The notes beneath the pieces were generated by a model. That model had not been told where the DNA came from and searched no databases. It saw nothing but the letters and a program-made list of their open reading frames with translations. A DNA stretch of 64,000 nt from Arenimonas terrae (lineage in GTDB: Bacteria; Pseudomonadota; Gammaproteobacteria; Xanthomonadales; Xanthomonadaceae), in assembly GCF_006265115.1 (NCBI RefSeq), contig NZ_SMDR01000002.1, positions 247,743-311,742 of the forward strand. The letters are read 5' to 3'. The translations under genes and the position numbers were made by a program. Shown here piece by piece: positions 3,332 through 14,188 of this stretch. Each line of letters begins with the position of its first letter. Position 1 is the stretch's first letter.

Positions 3332-4381
3332 ATGGACATCCGCATCGAAGGCGTGGGCAAGCAGTTCGGCGAAACCGCCGCCCTGCATCCCGTGGACCTG
3401 GTCATCCCCTCCGGGCAACTGGTGGCGCTGCTGGGGCCGTCGGGCTCGGGCAAGACGACCCTGCTGCGCCTGATCGCGGGCCTGCTGCCGGTGGACGGCG
3501 GCCGCATCCTGTTCGGCAATCACGACGCCACGCGGCTGTCGCTGCGCGAGCGCCGGGTCGGCTTCGTGTTCCAGCACTACGCGCTGTTCCCGCACCTGAG
3601 CGTGTTCGAGAACGTCGCCTTCGGCCTGCGCTGCCGGCCGCGCGCGTCGCGGCCGGACAAGGCCACGATCACCCGCAAGGTGGACGAATTGCTGGGACTG
3701 GTGCAGATGGCCGGCCTGCGCGACCGCCTGCCCGACCAGCTCTCCGGCGGCCAGAAGCAGCGCGTGGCCCTGGCCCGCGCCATGGCCATCGACCCGACCG
3801 TGCTGCTGCTGGACGAACCCTTCGGCGCGCTCGACGCCAAGGTGCGCGTCGAGCTGCGCCGCTGGCTGCGGCGTTTCCACGACGAGACCGGCATCACCAC
3901 CCTGTTCGTCACCCACGACCAGGAAGAGGCGCTGGAGCTGGCCGACCGCGTGGTCGTCATGAGCCAGGGCCGCATCGAACAGGACGGCAGCCCCGACGCC
4001 GTCTACGCCGAACCGGCCACGCCCTTCGTGTACGACTTCCTCGGCCGCAGCAACCAGATCGCGGGCAAGGTGCTGGGCGGCGACTTCCGCGCCGGCGAGG
4101 GCGGCTCGGCGGTGCCTGCGCGCGATTTCGTCTCGGGCCCCGCGACCCTGTTCGCGCGGCCGCACGACATCGACGTGGTGGCGCCGGAGGCGGGCCTGCC
4201 GGCCACCGTCAGCGAGGTGCGGTCGCTGGCCGGACGGCTGATCCTGGAGGCGGCGGTGGACGGGCAGGCGCGGCCGGTCGAGGTGGACCTGCCCTACGCG
4301 GACCGGCCCGCACCGCAGCGCGGCGAGCGCATCGGGCTGGCGCTGCGCCGCTACCGGGTGTTCCCGTCCGCGTCGGCCTGA
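3332..4381 (+). CDS. cysA: sulfate/thiosulfate ABC transporter ATP-binding protein CysA
   Basis: This 349-residue ATPase powers the CysTW permease. It has Walker A GPSGSGKT at residues 35-42, a Q-loop near FQHYALF (80-86), the ABC signature LSGGQ at 137-141, Walker B LLLDEP at 158-163 and the switch His in FVTHD. The C-terminal third (from about residue 235) is a TOBE-like regulatory domain. The start is the ATG at 3332, preceded by AAGGAAG; an upstream in-frame start at 3305 would overlap cysW and has no better site. Last gene of the sulfate operon. Confidence 0.94.
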
Positions 4382-4414
4382 GCGCGCCGGCCCGGACGCC
4401 GGGGCCCGGCGCGC
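4382..4414 (+). other. GC-rich inverted repeat after cysA
   Basis: A perfect 9-base inverted repeat, GCGCGCCGG (4382-4390) and CCGGCGCGC (4406-4414), starts directly after the cysA stop codon. No T-tract follows, so it is not a classical rho-independent terminator; it may stabilise the 3' end of the cys mRNA. It could also be chance in this GC-rich DNA. Confidence 0.3.
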
Positions 4415-4459
4415 CGGTGCGGAACGCTTCGATGCGGGCGGGCCCGCGGGGCAAGCCCG

Positions 4460-4471
4460 TATAATCGCCGC
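4460..4471 (+). promoter_or_regulatory. ispB promoter -10 box; probable leaderless start
   Basis: A perfect TATAAT (4460-4465) ends six bases before the ispB ATG at 4472, which puts the expected transcription start at or within a base of the ATG. No Shine-Dalgarno sequence can fit. The natural reading is a leaderless mRNA. A clear -35 at 17-base spacing is not visible (GGCGGG). Confidence 0.6.
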
Positions 4472-5470
4472 ATGTCCGCCCTCCCCCACACCGCCGCCCT
4501 GCCCGGCATCGCCGCCATCCAGGCCCTGGCCGCCGGCGAGATGGCCGCCGTGAACACGCTGATCCGCAGCCGCCTGGCTTCGGACGTGACGCTGATCAAC
4601 CAGATCTCCGAACACATCATCGCCGCCGGCGGCAAGCGCCTGCGGCCGATGCTGGTGGTGCTGGCGGCCAAGGCCCTGGGGCACGGCGGCGCCAATGCGC
4701 ACCAGCTGGCGGCGATCATCGAGTTCATCCACACCTCGACCCTGCTGCACGACGACGTGGTGGACGAATCGGACCTGCGCCGCGGCCGCAAGACCGCGAA
4801 CGCGCTGTGGGGCAACGCGCCCAGCGTGCTGGTCGGCGATTTCCTGTACTCGCGCAGTTTCCAGCTGATGGTCGAGCTCGATTCGATGCCGATCATGCGG
4901 GTGCTGGCCGACACCACCAACCTGATCGCCGAGGGCGAGGTGCTGCAGCTGCTGCACGTGCACAACCCCGACACCGACGAGGCCGCCTACCTGCGGGTGA
5001 TCGAGCGCAAGACGGCGGTGCTGTTCGCGGCGGCGACGCGCTTGGGCGCATTGCAGGCCGGGGCCTCGGAAGAGGTGCAGCAGCGCCTGCACGATTTCGG
5101 CATGAACCTGGGCCTGGCCTTCCAGATCGCCGACGACGTGCTCGACTACACGGCCGACGCCGCCGACCTGGGCAAGAACCTCGGCGACGACCTGGCCGAG
5201 GGCAAGGCCACGCTGCCGCTGATCCACGCGATGGCGCACAGCAGCGACGCGGTGCGCAACCGCCTGCGCGAGATTGTCGAAGCCGGCGACGCGTCGGCGA
5301 TGCCGGAAGTGCTGGCCGCGATCGGCCAGACCGGCGGCATCGGCTACAGCCAGCAGCGCGCGGCGCACTATGCGGCGCTCGCCGAACAGGCGCTCGACGG
5401 TCTGCCGGACAACGAGTGGCTGCAGGCCCTGCGCGGCCTCGCCCACTACTCCGTCGCCCGCAACCACTGA
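4472..5470 (+). CDS. ispB: octaprenyl/polyprenyl diphosphate synthase
   Basis: This 332-residue trans-prenyltransferase condenses isopentenyl diphosphate onto farnesyl diphosphate to make the side chain of ubiquinone. The two Asp-rich motifs that hold the Mg-diphosphate are intact: DDVVD at residues 94-98 and DDVLD at 221-225, plus GGKRLRP near residue 53-59. Length matches IspB (about 330). The chain length of the product (C40 is usual in this family) cannot be read from the sequence with certainty. It stands alone, separated from the cys operon, with its own -10 box right at the start codon. Confidence 0.93.
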   Translation: MSALPHTAALPGIAAIQALAAGEMAAVNTLIRSRLASDVTLINQISEHIIAAGGKRLRPMLVVLAAKALGHGGANAHQLAAIIEFIHTSTLLHDDVVDESDLRRGRKTANALWGNAPSVLVGDFLYSRSFQLMVELDSMPIMRVLADTTNLIAEGEVLQLLHVHNPDTDEAAYLRVIERKTAVLFAAATRLGALQAGASEEVQQRLHDFGMNLGLAFQIADDVLDYTADAADLGKNLGDDLAEGKATLPLIHAMAHSSDAVRNRLREIVEAGDASAMPEVLAAIGQTGGIGYSQQRAAHYAALAEQALDGLPDNEWLQALRGLAHYSVARNH

Positions 5471-5534
5471 CTTGCGCCTTTGGCGCAAGCAGGTCCCGTT
5501 CTCGCGGGCGGTTGATCTGGCGTGCGCCGTCCCG

Positions 5535-5635
5535 CACACCTAGGGTCCCCTGCCCGCTCAATCGGCGCGGCGTCCTGCCCACCGATTCGCGGCCGCTACG
5601 GCATCCTGCCTTCGCTTCAGGGGACCCTAGGTGTG
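5535..5635. repeat. 18-bp perfect inverted repeat with 65-base loop
   Basis: CACACCTAGGGTCCCCTG at 5535-5552 is repeated in exact reverse complement at 5618-5635. Each arm contains its own near-palindrome CCTAGG. The arms are far too long and perfect for chance. The pair could be the ends of a small non-autonomous element or a structured RNA; the 65-base interior has no reading frame worth naming. Confidence 0.6.
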
Positions 5636-5829
5636 CAGGCCGTCGCCACGGAGCATCTTCGCGAGCCGAAGGGATAAACGCGTGCCCCTGAAGGCACGGA
5701 AGCTCGCAGATTGGCCCGCCTCGGTGGCGAGGGCAGGTCCGGGCGAGTCGCAAGTCAACGGCGGAGATGCCGAAGGCGTCTCCAATGCGAGCGTCTCTAG
5801 TTAGATAGCCCGGCCCGAAAGGTCCGCAG

Positions 5830-5939
5830 GCCGTCGTGCGTGAGGGCTCTTTCCGCGGCTTCGAAAACATGGACGTTTTCGAAGAGCCTCCATGGATGGA
5901 TTCACGGCGTCCGCGGAAAGAGCCCTCACGTACGGCGGC
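5830..5939. repeat. nested inverted repeat (29 bp outer, 9 bp inner)
   Basis: The outer arms (5830-5858 and 5911-5939) match at 27 of 29 positions, with core GTGAGGGCTCTTTCCGCGG and its complement. Inside lies a perfect hairpin TTCGAAAAC-ATGGAC-GTTTTCGAA (5860-5883). The right arm runs into the direct repeats that begin CCTCACGTACGGC. It resembles the dispersed intergenic repeats of Lysobacteraceae genomes (from memory, not checked). Confidence 0.55.
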
Positions 5940-6021
5940 CTATCGCCAGGAACGATCCCGGCACCAAGAGACCTCACGTACGGCTGCCTATTGCAAAGAA
6001 AGAACGAGCCCGGCACCAAGA
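5924..6021. repeat. two degenerate tandem direct repeats (~48 bp)
   Basis: Copy 1 (5924-5970) and copy 2 (5972-6021) both open with CCTCACGTACGGC, continue with GCCTAT or TGCCTATT, and close with CCCGGCACCAAGAG. The middle is diverged and differs by a few bases in length. The start of copy 1 is also part of the right arm of the larger inverted repeat at 5911-5939. Confidence 0.55.
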
Positions 6022-6033
6022 GCCGCCAAACGA

Positions 6034-6059
6034 GAAAGGCCCGCAAAAGCGGGCCTTTC
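6034..6059. terminator. bidirectional terminator between repeat region and dienelactone hydrolase
   Basis: A perfect stem GAAAGGCCCGC / GCGGGCCTTTC with loop AAAA. On the minus strand it follows the hydrolase stop (6080) by 20 bases; on the plus strand it could end readthrough from ispB. T-runs are short (CTTTCC), so it is a moderate terminator in either direction. Confidence 0.7.
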
Positions 6060-6079
6060 CGCGAAACCGACGGGATGAA

Positions 6080-6877
6080 TCAGTCGCCGAAGCGCTCGTC
6101 GAAGAACGACTCCATCATCACGAAGCTGCGCTTGGCCGCGCGCTCGTCGTACTTGCAGCCGGGCAGCTTGATGCCGTCCTCGCTGGCTTCGGTGAAGCAG
6201 TGCAGCGCCCCGCCGAAATCGACCGACTGCCAGTCGGCACCGGCGTCGCGCATCTCCTTCTCGAAACCGGCGCGCTGCTCGGCCGAAACGAAATAGTCGT
6301 CGGCGCCGTTGAGCGCCAGCACCGCGGCCTTCACCGCGCCGGCTTCGGCCGGACGCTGGGTGGCGAGATTGGAGTGGAAGGCGACCACGCCGTCCACGTT
6401 GGCGCCGCTGCGCGCCAGGTCCAGCACGATCGCGCCGCCGAAGCAGAAGCCGATGCCGCCCAGGCGCTCGACGTCGAGCGGCGCCCTGGCGGCCGTGGCC
6501 TCGAGCACGCCCAGCGCCCGCTTGATGCGGCCGCGCAGCGCGTCGGGATCGGCGTACACCGCGCCCGATGCCTTGCCGGCCTCATCGGCATTGGCCGGGC
6601 GCACGCCGCGGCCGTACATGTCCACCACCAGGATGACGTAGTCGTCGCCGGCGATCTGCTGGGCCTTGGCGATGGCCTCGTCGTTGACGCCGTACCAGTT
6701 GGGCACCATCACCAGGCCCGGGCGCTTTTCCTTGCTGCCGTCGTCGTAGACCAGCACCCCGTCGAAATCGGTGCCGCCGTGGTTCCAGCTGATGGGTTCG
6801 GCCACCGGCTTGGCGGCGGCGGAAAGGCTGAGGCTGCAGAGCGCGAGGGCAAGGGTGCAGGCGATCGGGGCACGCAT
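6080..6877 (-). CDS. secreted dienelactone hydrolase family protein
   Basis: This 265-residue alpha/beta hydrolase has a signal peptide (residues 1-22, ending SAAAK), so it acts in the periplasm. The dienelactone-hydrolase triad is in place: Cys145 within GFCFGG (143-148), an Asp in NGADDYF (193 or 194) and His226 in GGALHCF. A Cys rather than Ser nucleophile is the hallmark of this family. The substrate is unknown; members open lactones or esters. GGAGGATC upstream supports the ATG at 6877. It lies downstream of murD2 on the same strand with a 73-base gap, so it may be transcribed on its own. Confidence 0.85.
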   Translation of the reverse strand: MRAPIACTLALALCSLSLSAAAKPVAEPISWNHGGTDFDGVLVYDDGSKEKRPGLVMVPNWYGVNDEAIAKAQQIAGDDYVILVVDMYGRGVRPANADEAGKASGAVYADPDALRGRIKRALGVLEATAARAPLDVERLGGIGFCFGGAIVLDLARSGANVDGVVAFHSNLATQRPAEAGAVKAAVLALNGADDYFVSAEQRAGFEKEMRDAGADWQSVDFGGALHCFTEASEDGIKLPGCKYDERAAKRSFVMMESFFDERFGD

Positions 6878-6950
6878 GGCGGGATCCTCCGGAAATGTTG
6901 CGGCGAGTTTATGCGCTGCGCGGCGGGCCGGCGCAAACGCGGGGTGAAGC

Positions 6951-8330
6951 TCAGGCCACGCCCAGGCCGGGGATGGCGCTGATCTGTTCGGGGTCGAACC
7001 CGGCGACCTTGGCGAAGTGCCGGCCGCGTTCGACGTAGTCCTTGTAGCGCGGGAAACTGGGCGCGCCCGGCGACAGCAGCAGCACGCCGTTCTGGCCCAG
7101 GGCCTGCAGGCCGAGTTTGACCGCTTCGTCCATGTCGCCGGCCTCGGCCAGGATGAAACGGTCGCCCAATGACAAGGGTTTCAGTTTCTCGTGCACACGC
7201 GGCCCGTTCTGTCCCATCGTGATCACGGCGGTCACCGGCTCGGCGGCCAGGCGCTCGGCGAAGATGCCCCAGTCCAGGCCGCGGTCGTAACCGCCGACCA
7301 GGATCGCGACGCGCCGGCCGCGGAAACAGTCGAGCGCGGCGATGCTGGCGTGCGGCGTGGTCGAGATCGAATCGTTCACCGATTCGATGCCCTGGCGCGT
7401 TCCCAGCGACTGCAGGCGGTGCGGCAGCGGGCGGAAGCTGGCGATGGCCGGCGCCAGCGCCGCGGCATCCAGGCCCAGGGCTTCGATCGCGGCGAGCGCT
7501 GCGCACAGGTTCAGGCGGTTGTGGCGGCCCGGCAGCGGCAGGCTGCGGGTGTCGAGCACGGCCCGTTCGCCGCGGTGGACCACGCTGTCGCGCAGGTGCC
7601 AGCCGTCGGCATGGTTGAACCACAGCACGCGCGTCGCCGGCGGCACGTCAAGTTCGACCAGGTGCGGGTCGGCGGCGTTGAGCACGGCGAGGCGCGGCGC
7701 GCCGCGCGTCACCAGGGCGAGCTTGTCTTCGTAGTAGCGGGCTTCGCTGCCGTGCCAGTCCAGGTGCTCGGGAAAAAGATTGAGCACCACCGCCACGTCG
7801 ACGTTCTGCGCCTCGGCGGTCTGGTAGCTTGACAGCTCGATCGCCCAGACGTCCGGCGGCGGCTGCACGTCGATCAGCTCCAGCAGCGGCAGGCCGATGT
7901 TGCCGGCCAGCGCGGTGCGCTTGCCGGCGGCGCGCAGCAGGTGCGCGACCATCGCCGTGGTCGTGGACTTTCCCTTGGTGCCGGTGACGGCGATGCGCTT
8001 GCCGGTCGGCGGCTCGGCGAACCACAGGCCGCTGGCGCCGATGTAGCGCACGCCCGCCAGCGCGGCATCGGCGGCCGGCGAGGTGTAAGGGCTGATGCCG
8101 GGGGATTTGATGACGACTTCATGCGCGGCCAGTGCATCCGCGTTCACGGCCGTCTCGATGCGCAGCGCCGGGTCCTGCATCTCGCGCAGCGGTTCGGCCT
8201 CGTCGTGCGAACAGAACACGGTGATCGGCTGGCTCGGCAGCCGCCAGCGCAGCGCCGCCAGCGCCGAGCGGCCTTCCCGGCCGTAACCCCAGATCGCGAC
8301 CTTCCTGCCCTCAAGCTCCGAAATGCGCAC
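6951..8330 (-). CDS. murD2: UDP-MurNAc-L-Ala--L-Glu ligase MurD2
   Basis: This 459-residue Mur ligase adds glutamate to UDP-MurNAc-L-alanine, in the cytoplasm. It has a Rossmann-like N-terminal domain ([13 protein letters not shown], residues 11-23), the ATP-binding P-loop TGTKGKST at 116-123, and central and C-terminal Mur domains. Adjacency to MurL marks it as the MurD2 type, which uses L-glutamate, rather than ordinary MurD. I start it at the GTG at 8330, which gives the family's usual opening (V/M-RIS-LEG) and a 20-base overlap with the end of murL; a longer frame from 8369 is open but less likely. GGGGA lies seven bases before the GTG. Assignment as MurD2 depends on the neighbour; sequence alone would also fit MurD. 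Confidence 0.88.
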
Positions 8331-9666
8331 GCAGCGGTCCCCATAGCCCGGCCGGAATGCCGTGATCATCCGAGGCTTCGAGCAGCGGCGCCAGCCCCCG
8401 GTCCTCCGGGCTCAGCTGGGGCCGGATCTCGCGGAGGTAGCGCTTGACCAAGGCGTCCTCGCGCCAGGCCGGGCTGTCGGCCAGGGCATCGAGCGCGGCG
8501 CGGGATTCGCGGCCCTCGCCCACGCACTCGAAGGGTTTGTGGTCGCGGTATTCCAGCAGCGCATCGAAACCCGGCGCCTGCTCCGGCTCGTCGAGCAGGT
8601 TGCGCCCGAAGATGCCCATCAGCCGCGGTTTCGGCATGAACGGCGCCAGGGCCAGGAACACGAAATGGCATTTGGGGCAGACGCCGCACCAGCGCTGCGC
8701 CGGGCGCTCGCCCAGCAGGTGGAAATTGCGGTTGCAGCTGGAGAAGTGCTGGTCGTAGCGGTCCAGGCGCGCGAACTGCCGCGCCACCGCCAGCTCCGAG
8801 AACGGCCGCAGCAGCGAGTAGTAGGCCAGGTCCGCCGCCACGTGCGAACGCAGGTGCGCGGCGAAGGCCTGCTCGAAGGCCCAGCCCTTGGACCACTGGT
8901 GGTTCACTTCGCCCGTGCCAGGGATCAGGCTGCCGTAGCTGGCCGAACGTTCGTTCGAGAACACCACCTGGTCGTGGCCCTGCAGCAGCGCCGCCACCGC
9001 CAGGATGGCGGAGTTCACCGCCGTCACCGGGATGTGGCCATTGAGCGCGCCCTGCTTGTTGTAGTCAAACAGCAGCGGCGACAGCGTGCGGGTGATGTTG
9101 AGCGTGGGCAGGCCGGTGCGTTCGGCGCAGGCCTTGATCAGCGGCGCGCTGCCGACCCAGGACACGGTCTGTTCGATGCCCAGCGCACGCAGGGCTTCGA
9201 TCGAGACCAGCGAGTCCTTGCCGCCGCCGATCGCCACGACGGCGTGGCGGCGCAGGCCGGCGTCCGTCGCGGCCGGCATCGCAGCCGCCGTCGCCGGAAA
9301 GACGATCCTGCCGCGCAGCGACAGCCCGTTGCGGTAGGCGAACTCGCCCAGCCCGTTTTCGTACAGCGAGGTCAGCAGTGCGGCGGTGGCGGCGTCGATG
9401 CCCTCGCCTTCGATCCGGATCTCCGGCGGCACGGCGGCCTTGTAGTAGCTGATGCCGGCGAACAGGTGCAGCAGGCGCAGCGCCCGCTGCACGGCGCCGG
9501 CGCGCGCGCCGTCGAGCGCGAACGGCGCGCCGGGGAAACGCACGGTCTCGACCAGGGCCGGGCCGTCGTCGAAGGCATAGGCCAGGCGCGCTTCGCCGGT
9601 GGCGGCGTCGAAGCCGCAGTCGAGGAAGCGGAAGGCGCGGATGGATTCGCGTTTGAACTCAGTCAT
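8311..9666 (-). CDS. murL: UDP-MurNAc-L-Ala-L-Glu epimerase MurL
   Basis: This 451-residue protein matches MurL, which epimerises the terminal L-glutamate of UDP-MurNAc-L-Ala-L-Glu to D-glutamate, in an ATP-dependent reaction. It replaces glutamate racemase MurI as the source of D-Glu for peptidoglycan. Visible features: a PP-loop-like nucleotide motif IGGGKDS at 146-152 and a C-terminal Cys cluster (Cys311; C-x2-C-x2-C at 327, 330, 333, CGVCPKC) that looks like a metal site. The ATG overlaps the lysAC stop (ATGACTGA), and the 3' end overlaps murD2, so the three genes are translationally coupled. Family recognition comes from the sequence pattern plus the murD2 neighbour. Confidence 0.9.
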
Positions 9667-12277
9667 CGATCACGTCCTCCTGCGGCAGCTCGCGCAGGTT
9701 GTAGCGGTTGGCCATCACCGCGCCGTAGGCGCCGGCGTGGCCGACCAGGAGCACGTCGCCCTCGGCGGTGGCGTCGGGCAGACGGCGCTGGCGGCCGAGC
9801 ACGTCGCTGGATTCGCAGACCGGGCCAACCACCTCCGCGGGCTCGCCGGGCGGATCGTCCAGGCGCGTCAGGTTCACGATCTCGTGCCAGGCGTTGTACA
9901 GCGCCGGGCGCATCAGCGCGTTCATGCCGCCGTCGGCGCCGATGCGGCGCAGGCCCTGCTTGTCCACGGCCTGGGTGACCGTGAGCAGCAGCGCGCCGGC
10001 TTCGGCGACCAGGTAGCGGCCGGGCTCGACCCAGAGCGCGTACTGCGGCCAGGCGGCTTTCACTTCCGCCAGCGCGGCGCCGTAGGCCGCCATGTCGAAG
10101 GGTTCGGCGTCCGGGTCGTAGCTCACGCCCAGGCCGCCGCCGACATCGATGAAACCGATGCTGCCGATGCCTTCGGCCAGCGAGGCCAGCTGCGCGTAGA
10201 CGGTGCGCCAGTGGCCGGCGTCGTGGATGCCGCTGCCGATGTGCGCGTGCAGCCCGGCGATGCGGGCGCCGGCCGCGCGCGCCGCGGCGACGAAGTCCGG
10301 CACCGCCGATTCGGCCAGGCCGAACTTGGCGGTCTTGCCGCCGGTGCGGACCTTCTCGTGATGGCCCTGGCCGAAGCCCGGGTCCACGCGCAGCACGACC
10401 TCGCGGCCGCGGAACAGCTCCGGCCAGCGCGCCAGCGGATAGGTGCTGTCGAGCGTGACGTGCACGCCGCGCGCCATCGCCGCGGCCAGTTCCGCGCGCG
10501 GCGCGAAGCTGGGCGTGAACAGCACGCGGTCAGGCGCCAGCGCCGGCAGCACGGTGTACAGGTGTTCGAGCTCGGCCTTCGACACACACTCGAAGCCGAA
10601 CCCCTCGGCCTCCAGCGTGCGCAGCACGGCGGGGTGGGCATTGGCCTTGAGCGCGTAGAAGCGCCGGTCGACGGCCGACAGGCCGGCGATCTCGCGGGCG
10701 CGGGCCCGCACCGTCGGCAGGTGGTAGAGGTAGCGCGGCGTTCCCGCTGCGGCGGCCTTCAGTACGCGCGCACGGTCGGATTCCCACCACAGCGGCGCGC
10801 GCCGGCTGTCGGGGCGGTCGATGCGGCGCCAGCTCGGGCCGAACACCGCCGCCTCGGTCACCGGCATCGCGCCCGAGTGCGCCAGCAGCGCGTGCAGGCG
10901 CGGCAGCATGCCTTCGGCCAGGCCTTCGTCCACCACGAAGGTGAGGTTGAGGTCGTTGGACGACTGCGAGATCAGGTGCACGCGCTCGCGGCCGAACTCG
11001 GCCCAGACGTCCGACAGCTTGTGCAGCAGCGAACGCATGCCGCGGCCGACCAGGGTGATCGCCGCGCAGGGCGCGATCACCTTCACGCGGCAGACCTGGG
11101 CCAGGTCGGCGCACAGCGCGTCCAGCACGTTGGTGTTCACCAGGTTGTCGCTGGGGTCCAGGGACACGGTGACATTGGCCTCGGACGAACCGATCAGGTC
11201 GATGGACAGACCGTGGGCCTTGAAGCGTTCGAACACGTCCGACAGGAAGCCCACCTGCTGCCACATGCCGATGGTCTCCATCGACACCAGCACGATGCCG
11301 CGGCGCGAGCTGATCGCCTTGACGCCCGGCAGCGTGGCCGCGGAGGAATCGATCACCGTGCCCGCCATGTCCGGCCGTTCGGTGTCTCGGATCCAGATCG
11401 GCACGCGCGCCTCGCGGCAGGGATGGATGCAGCGCGGATGCAGCACCTTGGCGCCGGTGGTGGCGATTTCCTGCGCTTCCTCGTAGTCAAGGCGGCTGAG
11501 CAGGCGCGCGTCGGGCACGGCGCGCGGGTTGGCGCTGAACATGCCGGGCACGTCGGTCCATATTTCGACGCGGCGCGCGCCGATCAGGGCGCCGAAATAC
11601 GCCGCCGAGGTGTCGGAGCCGCCGCGGCCCAGGATGGCCGTGCCGCCATCGGGCGCGCGCGCGATGAAACCCTGGGCGATGCGCAGCGCCGGGCCGGCGG
11701 CGTCGAAACGCCTGCGCAGGCCGGCGTCGCCGGTGTAGTCGCAGGAGGCCGAGAGGCGCTTGCTCCACTCGTTCTGGTTGGGCATCGGCCGGGCGTGGAT
11801 CCACTCGCGCGAATCGGTCCAGCCCACGTCCAGCCCCTGCGTGCGCAGGTAGGCGACGCCGAGCGTGGACGACAGCAGTTCGCCCTGCGCCATCACCTCG
11901 GCCTGCCAGTCGAGCGTGCCCGCGGCGGCGCGCGGGTCGTCGCCGAGCATGATCAGCGCGGCCAGGCGCTCGGTGAGCGCGCCGGGGTCGACGCCGAGCT
12001 CGCCGGCGAAGTCCTCGTGCCGGTGCACCAGCGCGCCGATGCGCGCATGCGTGCCCGCCGGATCGGCGTGGCCGTCGCAGATGGCCTGCAGTTCGTTGGT
12101 GACGCCCGACAGCGCCGACACCACCACCAGCACGCGGACGTGTTCCTCGTCCGCGCGCCGTTTCATCAGCCGGCCGATCGTGTCCCAACGGTGGCGCCGG
12201 GACACCGAGGTGCCTCCGAACTTGAGGACGATCCAATCCGGTGCGTCGGCACCGGCGACAGGCGGGGCTGGGCTCAT
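9659..12277 (-). CDS. lysAC: bifunctional aspartate kinase / diaminopimelate decarboxylase
   Basis: This 872-residue fusion joins the first and last enzymes of lysine synthesis. Residues about 15-450 are an aspartate kinase (LKFGGTSVS at 18-26, ACT regulatory domains at about 325-450, where lysine usually inhibits). Residues about 500-872 are a PLP-dependent diaminopimelate decarboxylase: the PLP lysine is Lys544 in YALKANAHP, with HAHIGSG and EPGRYLV motifs further on. The fusion is characteristic of Xanthomonadaceae. It heads the operon lysAC-murL-murD2; DAP is also a cell-wall precursor, so the operon couples lysine/DAP balance with peptidoglycan stem synthesis. No frameshift or interruption is visible across the fusion joint. 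Confidence 0.94.
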   Translation of the reverse strand: MSPAPPVAGADAPDWIVLKFGGTSVSRRHRWDTIGRLMKRRADEEHVRVLVVVSALSGVTNELQAICDGHADPAGTHARIGALVHRHEDFAGELGVDPGALTERLAALIMLGDDPRAAAGTLDWQAEVMAQGELLSSTLGVAYLRTQGLDVGWTDSREWIHARPMPNQNEWSKRLSASCDYTGDAGLRRRFDAAGPALRIAQGFIARAPDGGTAILGRGGSDTSAAYFGALIGARRVEIWTDVPGMFSANPRAVPDARLLSRLDYEEAQEIATTGAKVLHPRCIHPCREARVPIWIRDTERPDMAGTVIDSSAATLPGVKAISSRRGIVLVSMETIGMWQQVGFLSDVFERFKAHGLSIDLIGSSEANVTVSLDPSDNLVNTNVLDALCADLAQVCRVKVIAPCAAITLVGRGMRSLLHKLSDVWAEFGRERVHLISQSSNDLNLTFVVDEGLAEGMLPRLHALLAHSGAMPVTEAAVFGPSWRRIDRPDSRRAPLWWESDRARVLKAAAAGTPRYLYHLPTVRARAREIAGLSAVDRRFYALKANAHPAVLRTLEAEGFGFECVSKAELEHLYTVLPALAPDRVLFTPSFAPRAELAAAMARGVHVTLDSTYPLARWPELFRGREVVLRVDPGFGQGHHEKVRTGGKTAKFGLAESAVPDFVAAARAAGARIAGLHAHIGSGIHDAGHWRTVYAQLASLAEGIGSIGFIDVGGGLGVSYDPDAEPFDMAAYGAALAEVKAAWPQYALWVEPGRYLVAEAGALLLTVTQAVDKQGLRRIGADGGMNALMRPALYNAWHEIVNLTRLDDPPGEPAEVVGPVCESSDVLGRQRRLPDATAEGDVLLVGHAGAYGAVMANRYNLRELPQEDVIDD

Positions 12278-12404
12278 GGTCAGGGCTTATGATGGACGGG
12301 CGCCGGCGCGTGCGGCGCGGCGTCCCGCAGTGTAAACGAAGGCGCCGCCACCCGACCCGCCAGCCCGCGAACGATCCGTCATGAGCACCGAACGGGAGCC
12401 ACGC

Positions 12405-13280
12405 ATGCGCCGCAGGGATTTCCTCCAGCTCGACGTCTTCGCCGACCGCCCCGGCGCCGGCAACCCGCTGGCCGTGGTGCTCGACGCCCGCGACCTGGAC
12501 ACCGGCGCCATGCAGGCCTTCGCCGCCTGGACCAACCTCTCGGAAACCACCTTCGTGCTGCCGCCGGTCGAGGCCGCGGCCAGCTACCGCGTGCGCATCT
12601 TCACCCCGCGCCAGGAACTGCCCTTCGCCGGCCATCCCAGCGTCGGCACCGCCCACGCCCTGCTCGAGGCCGGCCTGGTCAGCGCCCGCGCCGGCCAGCT
12701 GGTGCAGGAATGCGCCGCCGGCCTGCTGCCCGTGCAGGTGGCGGGGGAAGGCGCGGCCCGGCGGGTGTCGGTGCGGGCTCCCCGCGGTCGGATCCGGCCG
12801 CTGCGGGCGCGGCCCGACGCGCTGCTGGAAGCCGCCTTGGCCGGACTGGTGCGCGGCGACCTGGCGCCGGCCCTCATCGACAACGGACCGGCCTGGTGGG
12901 TGGTCGAACTGGCCGATGCCCACCAGGTGCGCGCCATGGTGCCGCGGCTGCGCGAGATCGCCGCCCTGACCGAGGCCTCCGGCGCGGTCGGTCTGGCGGT
13001 GTTCGGGCGTGCCGCCGGCACCGACCACGCGCTGGCCGTGCGCGCCTACTGCCCGGCCGACGGCATTCCCGAAGACCCGGTGACCGGCAGCGCCAACGCC
13101 GCCATCGCCGCCTGGCTGCACGAGAACCAGGCGCTGGCCGCGGTCGGCAATCCCTACGTCGCCAGCCAGGGCCGCGAGATCGGACGCGACGGCCGGGTCG
13201 AGGTGCGCGTGGATGCCGATGGCGAAGTCTGGATCGGCGGCTGCACCCAGACCGTCATCCGCGGCACGCTGGACTGGTAA
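12405..13280 (+). CDS. PhzF family isomerase-fold protein (copy 1)
   Basis: This 291-residue protein has the two-lobed PhzF/diaminopimelate-epimerase-like fold, with the N-terminal signature LDVFADRPGAGNPLAVV, the conserved ETTFVLPP that holds the acidic catalytic residue, FAGHPSVGTAH, and the C-terminal EDPVTGSAN. PhzF proteins isomerise small metabolites; the substrate here is unknown, and there are no phenazine genes nearby. I start it at the ATG at 12405, with GGGAG six bases upstream, instead of 12381; this makes it exactly as long as the copy that follows. Divergent from lysAC. Confidence 0.85.
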   Translation: MRRRDFLQLDVFADRPGAGNPLAVVLDARDLDTGAMQAFAAWTNLSETTFVLPPVEAAASYRVRIFTPRQELPFAGHPSVGTAHALLEAGLVSARAGQLVQECAAGLLPVQVAGEGAARRVSVRAPRGRIRPLRARPDALLEAALAGLVRGDLAPALIDNGPAWWVVELADAHQVRAMVPRLREIAALTEASGAVGLAVFGRAAGTDHALAVRAYCPADGIPEDPVTGSANAAIAAWLHENQALAAVGNPYVASQGREIGRDGRVEVRVDADGEVWIGGCTQTVIRGTLDW

Positions 13281-13312
13281 CCTTCGCTTCCCCCACCGGG
13301 CAGGAAGCCCCG

Positions 13313-14188
13313 ATGTCCCGTGCCTTCGTGCAACTCGATGTCTTCGCCGCCCGTCCGGGCGACGGCAACCCGCTGGCCGTGGTGCTCGACGCCAAGGGCC
13401 TGGACGACACCACCATGCAGGCGATCGCCCGCTGGACGCGCCTGCCGGAAACCACCTTCGTGCTGCCGCCGAGCACGCCGGAGGCCAGCTACCGCCTGCG
13501 CATCTTCAGCCCGCGCCGCGAAGTGCCCTTCGCCGGGCACCCGAGCATCGGCAGCGCGCATGCGGTGCTCGAGGCCGGCCTGGCCCAGGTGCGCGACGGC
13601 CAGCTGGTGCAGGAATGCGCGGTCGGCCTGCTGCCGATCGAGGTGCGCGGCGAAGGCCGCGAGCGCCGGCTGTCGGTGCGGGCGCCGCGGGCGCGGGTGC
13701 TGGAGGTCGGGCAGCCCGACGACCGGCGCCTCGGGGCCGCGCTCAAGGGCTACGTGCCGGGCGCCCTGCCGCCGGTGCTGATGGACGGCGGCCGCCGCTG
13801 GTGGCTGGCCGAACTCGTGGACGAAGCCTCGGTGCGCAGCCTGGTGCCGCGCTGGGATGCGGTGTCGGCGCTGGCGCGCGGCCACGATGCGATGGGCCTG
13901 TGCGTGTTCGCTCGCTGCATCGGGCGCGACTATGACCTGGTGGTGCGCGCCCTGGTGGGTCAGCCCGCGCAGGTCGAGGACGCCGCCTCCGGCGCGGCCA
14001 ACGCAACGCTGGCCGCGTATCTGCACGCCAGCAACGCCCTGCCCCACCCCGACGGCCGCTATGTCGTCAGCCAGGGCCGCGAAGTCGGCCACGACGCGCG
14101 CCTGGAGCTGCGCGTGGACGCCGAGGGCGAAGTCTGGTCCGGCGGCATGGTGCAGACGGTCGTGCGCGGCCAGCTCGACTGGCCATGA
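13313..14188 (+). CDS. PhzF family isomerase-fold protein (copy 2)
   Basis: Also 291 residues, clearly a tandem duplicate of the preceding gene: the openings LDVFAARPGDGNPLAVV, ETTFVLPP and FAGHPSIGSAH are nearly the same, and the C-termini both end (V/I)(V/I)RG(Q/T)LDW. An important difference is in the C-terminal acidic loop: copy 1 has EDPVTGSAN, copy 2 has EDAASGAAN, so the substrate may differ. AGGAAG precedes the ATG. The 32-base gap suggests one transcript. A terminator follows at 14218. Confidence 0.85.
   Translation: MSRAFVQLDVFAARPGDGNPLAVVLDAKGLDDTTMQAIARWTRLPETTFVLPPSTPEASYRLRIFSPRREVPFAGHPSIGSAHAVLEAGLAQVRDGQLVQECAVGLLPIEVRGEGRERRLSVRAPRARVLEVGQPDDRRLGAALKGYVPGALPPVLMDGGRRWWLAELVDEASVRSLVPRWDAVSALARGHDAMGLCVFARCIGRDYDLVVRALVGQPAQVEDAASGAANATLAAYLHASNALPHPDGRYVVSQGREVGHDARLELRVDAEGEVWSGGMVQTVVRGQLDWP

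Follow-up and report, generated by a model that had tools for sequence, protein, structure and literature searches.

Both reactions of the MurD2/MurL route to the D-glutamate of peptidoglycan are known from Xanthomonas oryzae, in which XOO_1319 is MurL (PMC8788868). Glu197, Arg358, Pro433 and Phe435 of the X. oryzae MurD2 correspond to Asp182, Lys348, Ala414 and Leu416 of the E. coli MurD; the substitutions E197D and R358K each altered the stereospecificity of MurD2, and the double change switched it fully (PMC8788868). MurL is described as having no known domains and as forming AMP from ATP (PMC8788868, PMC5808125), and an adenylate has been proposed as a step of its reaction (PMC8788868). 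The published range of the route comprises some Gamma- and Alphaproteobacteria and rare actinobacteria (PMC8788868), with distant orthologues in a fungus, cyanobacteria and an amoeba (PMC5808125). A 64,000-nucleotide stretch of the genome of Arenimonas terrae (contig NZ_SMDR01000002.1, positions 247,743 to 311,742; hereafter the window) contains a locus of three genes, lysAC, murL and murD2, which on the strength of its sequence very probably encodes this route. The route is already known in kind and the window is one more case; the new leads are the likely fold family of MurL, a wider spread of the route that includes fusion proteins, and an Arg/Lys mark in MurD with likely natural reversals.

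The three genes, as read from the open reading frames (ORFs) of the window, are intact, co-directional and overlapping:

9659-12277, minus strand: lysAC, 872 amino acids, an N-terminal aspartate kinase (AA_kinase + ACT) fused to a C-terminal diaminopimelate decarboxylase.
8311-9666, minus strand: murL, 451 amino acids, with GGGKDS at residues 147-152 and Cys311/327/330/333.
6951-8369, minus strand: murD2, 472 amino acids from the ATG at 8369, with an alternative GTG start at 8330.

The sequence-only reading had given the genes these names and had put their overlaps at 8 and 20 bases, and the identities are borne out by scores over the curated cut-offs: LysAC matches NF006515 over its full length (1305.7 bits, cut-off 802), with PF00696, PF22468, PF02784 and PF00278 in that order in a single chain; MurL matches the equivalog model NF041275 (806.2 bits, cut-off 700); and MurD2 matches TIGR01087 (301.4 bits, cut-off 211.95), which makes it a MurD-family ligase. 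The overlap of lysAC with murL is 8 bases, as claimed, and that of murL with murD2 is 20 bases if murD2 starts at the GTG and 59 bases if it starts at the ATG, either of which may be the start. Co-transcription of lysAC, murL and murD2 is a reasonable supposition from this layout.

At the four positions of the glutamate site, the window MurD2 has Glu201, Arg363, Pro437 and Phe439 (numbered from the ATG); together with the gene identities and the absence of a detectable murI, these L-glutamate residues bear out a route of the Xanthomonas type (PMC8788868, PMC5808125). The genome that contains the window (3.31 Mb in 7 contigs, listed as 99.96% complete) was searched for murI and for a second murD, and neither was detected: the glutamate racemase model TIGR00067 has no match in the genome, where the same search of 14 control genomes gives a match over the cut-off in 8, and the only one of five TIGR01087 matches to exceed the cut-off is the window's own MurD2. 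In the dcw cluster, the matches to mraY and ftsW are 115 bases apart and murD is not there. A PF01177 match (20.4 bits, cut-off 31) was rejected as a racemase, since it sits within a gene read as panB. Of the earlier claim that the locus replaces MurI and MurD, the part concerning MurI stands; MurD2 is itself a MurD-family ligase.

That the murD2 product is instead an ordinary D-glutamate ligase, supplied by a class-IV aminotransferase or by a diaminopimelate epimerase that racemises glutamate, with some other task for MurL, is very improbable. Class-IV aminotransferases such as L007 are present in the genome, and there are precedents elsewhere for both sources, the DapF of Chlamydia having been described as a D-glutamate racemase (PMC5885031) and Rv0812 as a D-amino acid transaminase (PMC8105722). 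Two further points count against the L-glutamate route in the window. TIGR01121, the model for D-amino-acid transaminase, finds four class-IV aminotransferase genes in the genome, all below the cut-off (the best is L007, at 149.1 versus 277.45 bits), and this cut-off is strict, being passed by 1 of 14 control genomes, so a minor source of D-glutamate could still exist; and the MurD of S. mutans has the Arg yet uses D-glutamate (PMC8788868), so Arg by itself is no proof of L-glutamate use. The four aminotransferase matches were rejected as a source of D-glutamate on account of their scores; further scans of two of them identified L008, over the cut-off, as a branched-chain transaminase and gave no model over a cut-off for L007. 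On the other side, MurD2 has Glu and Arg at the positions that set L-glutamate use in X. oryzae, MurL exceeds the cut-off of its equivalog model, and in more than one phylum murL stands beside murD2 or is fused to it, all of which favors the MurD2/MurL route.

In the MurD2/MurL route, MurL would carry out a one-way inversion of the terminal glutamate that consumes ATP and yields AMP, and its product would enter the ordinary MurE-MurF steps, which are encoded in the dcw cluster. The window MurL has no Pfam match at an E-value of 0.001 and no match in PADLOC. A predicted structural model, made from a 20-row alignment, has a mean predicted local distance difference test (pLDDT) score of 93.7 and a predicted template modelling (pTM) score of 0.93, and a Foldseek search with this model returned only three solved structures at E-values of 0.001 or less: QueC (1.1e-4), QatC (1.7e-4) and QueC again (2.9e-4). 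Weaker fold matches to TtuA, Cap9, argininosuccinate synthase and MnmA, which we take to be members of the PP-loop group, were mixed with weak matches to unrelated folds. When 76 MurL proteins were aligned (20 from the order of the window's genome and 56 from the scan of species genomes described below), GGKDS, NHQ, Lys260 and Cys311/327/330/333 were invariant in all of them, and the exact GGGKDS was found in 53 of the 56. The 76-row profile aligns residues 140-372 of MurL to E. coli QueC with the P-loop and the Cys motif both paired (probability 70.8%, score 41.0), the control scores being at most 19.3 for 40 shuffles and at most 21.9 for 14 other E. coli proteins.

QueC adenylates a carboxylate, and its four Cys residues hold a structural metal. 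Since an adenylate has also been proposed for MurL, MurL may be an adenylase of the QueC-like PP-loop kind that was recruited as an epimerase, and such a fold fits its conversion of ATP to AMP; the prediction that MurL is a QueC-like PP-loop enzyme suggests a relationship to enzymes that use ATP to activate acids. GGGKDS would bind ATP, and the alpha-carboxylate of the terminal glutamate would be adenylated; this would make the alpha-proton more acidic, so that the proton could be exchanged before hydrolysis of the adenylate. The role of Cys311/327/330/333 is probably to bind a structural metal, as in QueC. A connection of MurL to the PP-loop group was not found among the matches listed in a literature search that covered papers outside subscription.

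Against so close a kinship with QueC, the TM-scores to QueC are no more than moderate, at 0.32 of the model and 0.58-0.69 of the target, and none of 20 MurL proteins matched a curated QueC model in Pfam (E-values up to 10) or NCBIfam (E-values up to 1); 4 of the 20 match DUF6395 weakly, at 0.015 at best. There is perhaps some chance, though we doubt it, that MurL is a PP-loop enzyme not close to QueC, in which the Cys motif had a separate origin or holds an iron-sulphur cluster like that of TtuA (the cluster is named in the titles of the matched structures). The identity of MurL to QueC is low (13-15%), TtuA matches MurL at the P-loop by sequence (E-value 0.0051) as well as by fold, the 20-row profile gave QueC a probability of only 2.8% (E-value 0.016), and the controls for the QueC score included no other E. 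coli PP-loop proteins; yet QueC and QatC account for the only three fold matches at E-values of 0.001 or less, and the 76-row alignment covers residues 140-372, pairs both motifs and scores twice the controls. We continue to regard MurL as a predicted QueC-like enzyme.

The order to which the window's genome belongs was surveyed through 299 genomes, among which MurL was found in 288 (over the cut-off in 167), lysAC exceeded its cut-off in 265, and MurI exceeded its cut-off in 3; some MurI match at an E-value of 0.001 was present in 94 genomes, those below the cut-off reaching 72.6 bits at most. Among the 11 genomes without MurL, murD is a fragment that lies at the end of a contig in three (G132, G157 and G187) and is absent over the cut-off in six (G042, G092, G166, G196, G204 and G208); in most of these, the assembly has probably failed to include the locus. 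G042, G092 and G208 lack MurL, a MurD over the cut-off and also a full lysAC, and show only weak racemase-like matches, which may reflect either assembly loss or a real difference. In the remaining two, G019 and G119, murD is full and MurI is present. The murD of G019 is located between mraY and ftsW and encodes the Asp/Lys residues, and G019 has no full lysAC (best E-value 1.1e-64). The third genome with MurI, G121, keeps murL and Glu/Arg; its full glutamate racemase (L091:5615-6505) is found amid ORFs that resemble a glycan cluster, and its D-glutamate may serve another polymer. This MurI was rejected as a wall racemase because of the retained murL and Glu/Arg and because its neighbors read as glycosyltransferase-type ORFs, a reading of the cluster in which MurI and one neighbor were scanned, the neighbor having no match. 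One MurL-bearing genome of the order set, G016, has Asp/Arg.

G119 (OFTM154) is a metagenome-assembled genome (MAG), the one MAG on which the reversal described here rests, listed as 98% complete with 3% contamination. Inside a 282-kb contig (L087) it has lysAC (4363-6957) followed by murD (7009-8415) with no murL, and a full MurI (220 bits) is encoded on another contig. The MurD of G119 is the sister of that of G020 (support 100/99), which makes it a MurD2 by descent, and it has Lys instead of Arg, with Glu and Ile kept at E. coli positions 182 and 319; G020 (OFTM396), of the same genus, has murL and Arg. An origin of the G119 MurD as a canonical MurD from outside was rejected because the protein is sister to its G020 counterpart and apart from E. 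coli MurD. No other genome in the 43-genome family of G119 has MurI over the cut-off. The MurD of G119 likely now uses D-glutamate, to judge from its residues and gene content, in what would be a natural return.

A collection of species genomes was scanned with the G119/G020 pair of MurD proteins and two short peptide patterns, and the best 80 of 113 confirmed loci were kept, a sample that is biased to MurD2-like proteins. MurL is encoded in the stretch in 56 of these 80 loci, with hidden Markov model scores of 245-597 bits (median 309), in records titled Bacteroidales, Clostridia, Bacilli, Erysipelotrichales, Peregrinibacteria, Peribacteria, Roizmanbacteria, Saccharibacteria and others. The majority of the MurL-bearing records are MAGs, in which contigs may have been binned wrongly; L206 has the title of a strain, and L173, titled Omnitrophota, groups with rows of candidate phyla on the tree. 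In seven loci (L170, L173, L175, L185, L190, L212 and L222) the murD match is inside the stop-to-stop reading frame of murL itself, and the products are apparent MurL-MurD2 fusion proteins. Seven MurL loci have ftsW, mraY or murG in the stretch. An even draw of 398 genomes of the phylum yielded MurL in 20, of which 10 belong to the order, 10 to other classes and none to the rest of the class; among nine stretches from other classes (8-14 kb), murL is beside murD2 in eight, and the ninth (L152) ends just after murL. These records suggest a route much more widespread than published, the only pathway papers in the literature searched (by title and start of abstract, outside subscription) being PMC8788868 and PMC5808125.

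The position of X. oryzae Arg358 is Arg in all 56 loci with MurL in the stretch. At the position of Glu197 the same loci have Glu (45) or Asp (11), and Glu/Asp at this position was rejected as diagnostic for that reason. The 24 loci without MurL in the stretch have Lys (15) or Arg (9), and for four of the 24, all with Arg, MurL is encoded elsewhere in the genome. Counted per genome, Arg accompanies MurL in 60 of 60 and Lys occurs in 15 of the 20 without MurL (Fisher p 2e-12, kinship ignored). Of the 15 Lys genomes, 9 have MurI over the cut-off, as do none of the 9 Arg genomes that lack a neighboring MurL; nor does any of the 26 searched among the 56 MurL genomes (the first 26 by id, five of them with weak matches), which brings the count to 0 of 35 Arg genomes tested. 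The best MurI match in four of the nine MurI-positive Lys genomes holds in-frame stop codons (table 11), perhaps where the match runs past the end of the gene.

A clean Arg/Lys rule is contradicted by five Arg genomes (L204, L207, L228, L229 and L238) and six Lys genomes for which the searches detected neither gene. The six (L165, L169, L200, L210, L219 and L223) are small genomes of 0.5-0.9 Mb, which may be incomplete or may depend on an outside source of D-glutamate. A quick tree of 105 rows requires 4 or more changes between Arg and Lys; of the independent pairs that differ in MurL, 4 have Arg on the side with MurL, 0 show the opposite and 3 do not differ at the position, numbers too small to be significant (p 0.125). 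Two of the contrasts are recent: G119 with G020, and two MurL-Arg Saccharibacteria beside seven MurI-Lys ones (the MurI search covered the seven).

LysAC would catalyze the first step of the aspartate family and the conversion of diaminopimelate to lysine, and its linkage to murL would be an operon arrangement at the level of the order. Coordinates of both genes were compared in 138 of the 288 genomes with MurL, and in every one murL is preceded by lysAC on the same strand of the same contig; the gap between the model matches ranges from 7 bases (the window, the smallest) to 1198 (median 110.5), and is 301-700 bases in 47 of the 138. A small overlapping reading frame (7510-7970) that probably encodes a membrane protein is found between lysAC and murL in L112, the one locus read, and such a frame may explain the gaps of 301-700 bases. 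The loci of the order that were counted number 24 (L087, L092-L112, L114 and L118), leaving out L089 (canonical MurD), the fragments L115-L117, and L088, L090, L091 and L113 (fetched for other reasons). All three genes are together in 13 of the 24, across seven family codes; murL-murD2 without lysAC in the stretch is seen in 7, murD2 alone in 3 (L107, L108 and L099, which is near a contig end), and lysAC-murD without murL in 1 (L087 of G119). The nine stretches from other classes (8-14 kb) have no lysC, lysA or lysAC. Since lysAC is absent from the stretches of the other classes and conserved in the order, murL-murD2 seems to be the core of the locus, to which the order has added lysAC; several families of the order lack this linkage.

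The sequence-only reading had held that the linkage puts lysine and diaminopimelate supply and stem-peptide synthesis under one promoter. That a single transcript balances the two, making the linkage functionally meaningful, is a tentative proposal that we consider rather unlikely to be right: it would agree with the overlaps of 8 and 20 or 59 bases, with the constant position of lysAC ahead of murL in all 138 genomes compared and with the 13 complete loci in seven family codes, but lysAC is missing beside murL-murD2 in 7 of 24 order loci and 9 of 9 stretches from other classes, and conservation through descent within the order would explain the linkage equally well. The regions that flank the operon are as follows:

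12278-12380: intergenic gap between lysAC and a divergent phzF-like gene, the expected place of the operon promoter.
6080-6877, minus strand: gene of the dienelactone hydrolase family (PF01738, 129.6 bits), 73 bases downstream of murD2.
6040-6065, minus strand: candidate terminator, a hairpin followed by a T-rich tail.

A scan of the region for the sigma-70 consensus found no promoter, with only 0.1 expected, so the scan has little power. A lysine riboswitch ahead of lysAC was rejected, as an Rfam search of the window gave zero matches at the gathering score; neither search lends evidence to the balancing proposal. With the hydrolase gene on the same strand 73 bases beyond murD2, the transcript may exceed three genes and include a fourth; a dienelactone hydrolase gene is also downstream of murD2 in five loci of the order (L092, L111, L112, L114 and L118). 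The evidence from the candidate terminator is weak, because 4 such sites were found in the region versus 3.2 expected. Two tandem phzF-like genes (12381-14188, plus strand) diverge from lysAC; the first passes the PhzF model, the second is labeled from the ORF list, and the pair is also present in L092, L111 and L112 by tblastn.

Taken together, the results incline us to a view that we hold with some reservation: racemase-free synthesis of D-glutamate, far from being confined to a few genera, may be an old and mobile alternative to MurI that occurs in Bacteroidota, Bacillota and candidate phyla, sometimes through fused MurL-MurD2 proteins. Its MurL would be a relative of the QueC-like carboxylate adenylases, and a single exchange of Arg and Lys in MurD would mark the lineages that have switched from one route to the other. 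The switching is read from OFTM154 versus OFTM396 and from the two Saccharibacteria versus their seven MurI-bearing kin, natural pairs for the study of a change of stereochemistry in an essential step of wall synthesis. The general MurD model labels MurD2 as a D-glutamate ligase, a label that the Arg/Lys position and the presence of MurL offer a way to correct, and a QueC-like PP-loop MurL would make its unexplained ATP-to-AMP chemistry testable. Inhibitors of MurL and MurD2 have been discussed as narrow-spectrum (PMC8788868); if the route does reach gut Bacillota, Bacteroidota and candidate phyla, they may be less narrow.

Compared with the X. oryzae pair (XOO_1320/XOO_1319), the window likewise has murL and murD2 adjacent, a MurL of the same curated family, a MurD2 with Glu/Arg/Pro/Phe and a genome without a racemase gene; it differs in that its genes overlap one another and lysAC, and in that the route is predicted here from sequence. 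The ligase belongs to the same family as that of the canonical route of MurI and MurD, whereas no MurI is detected here and murD is absent between mraY and ftsW, and L-glutamate would be joined first and then inverted on the nucleotide sugar. With QueC and QatC/Cap9, MurL shares a predicted PP-loop fold, the GG-K/Q-DS motif and the Cys-x(n)-Cys-x2-Cys-x2-Cys motif, in the same order; unlike QueC, it has extra N- and C-terminal parts, a different reaction and no match to a curated QueC model. LysAC is a full-length match over the cut-off to the known fusion (NF006515, PRK08961), from which it differs in nothing notable.

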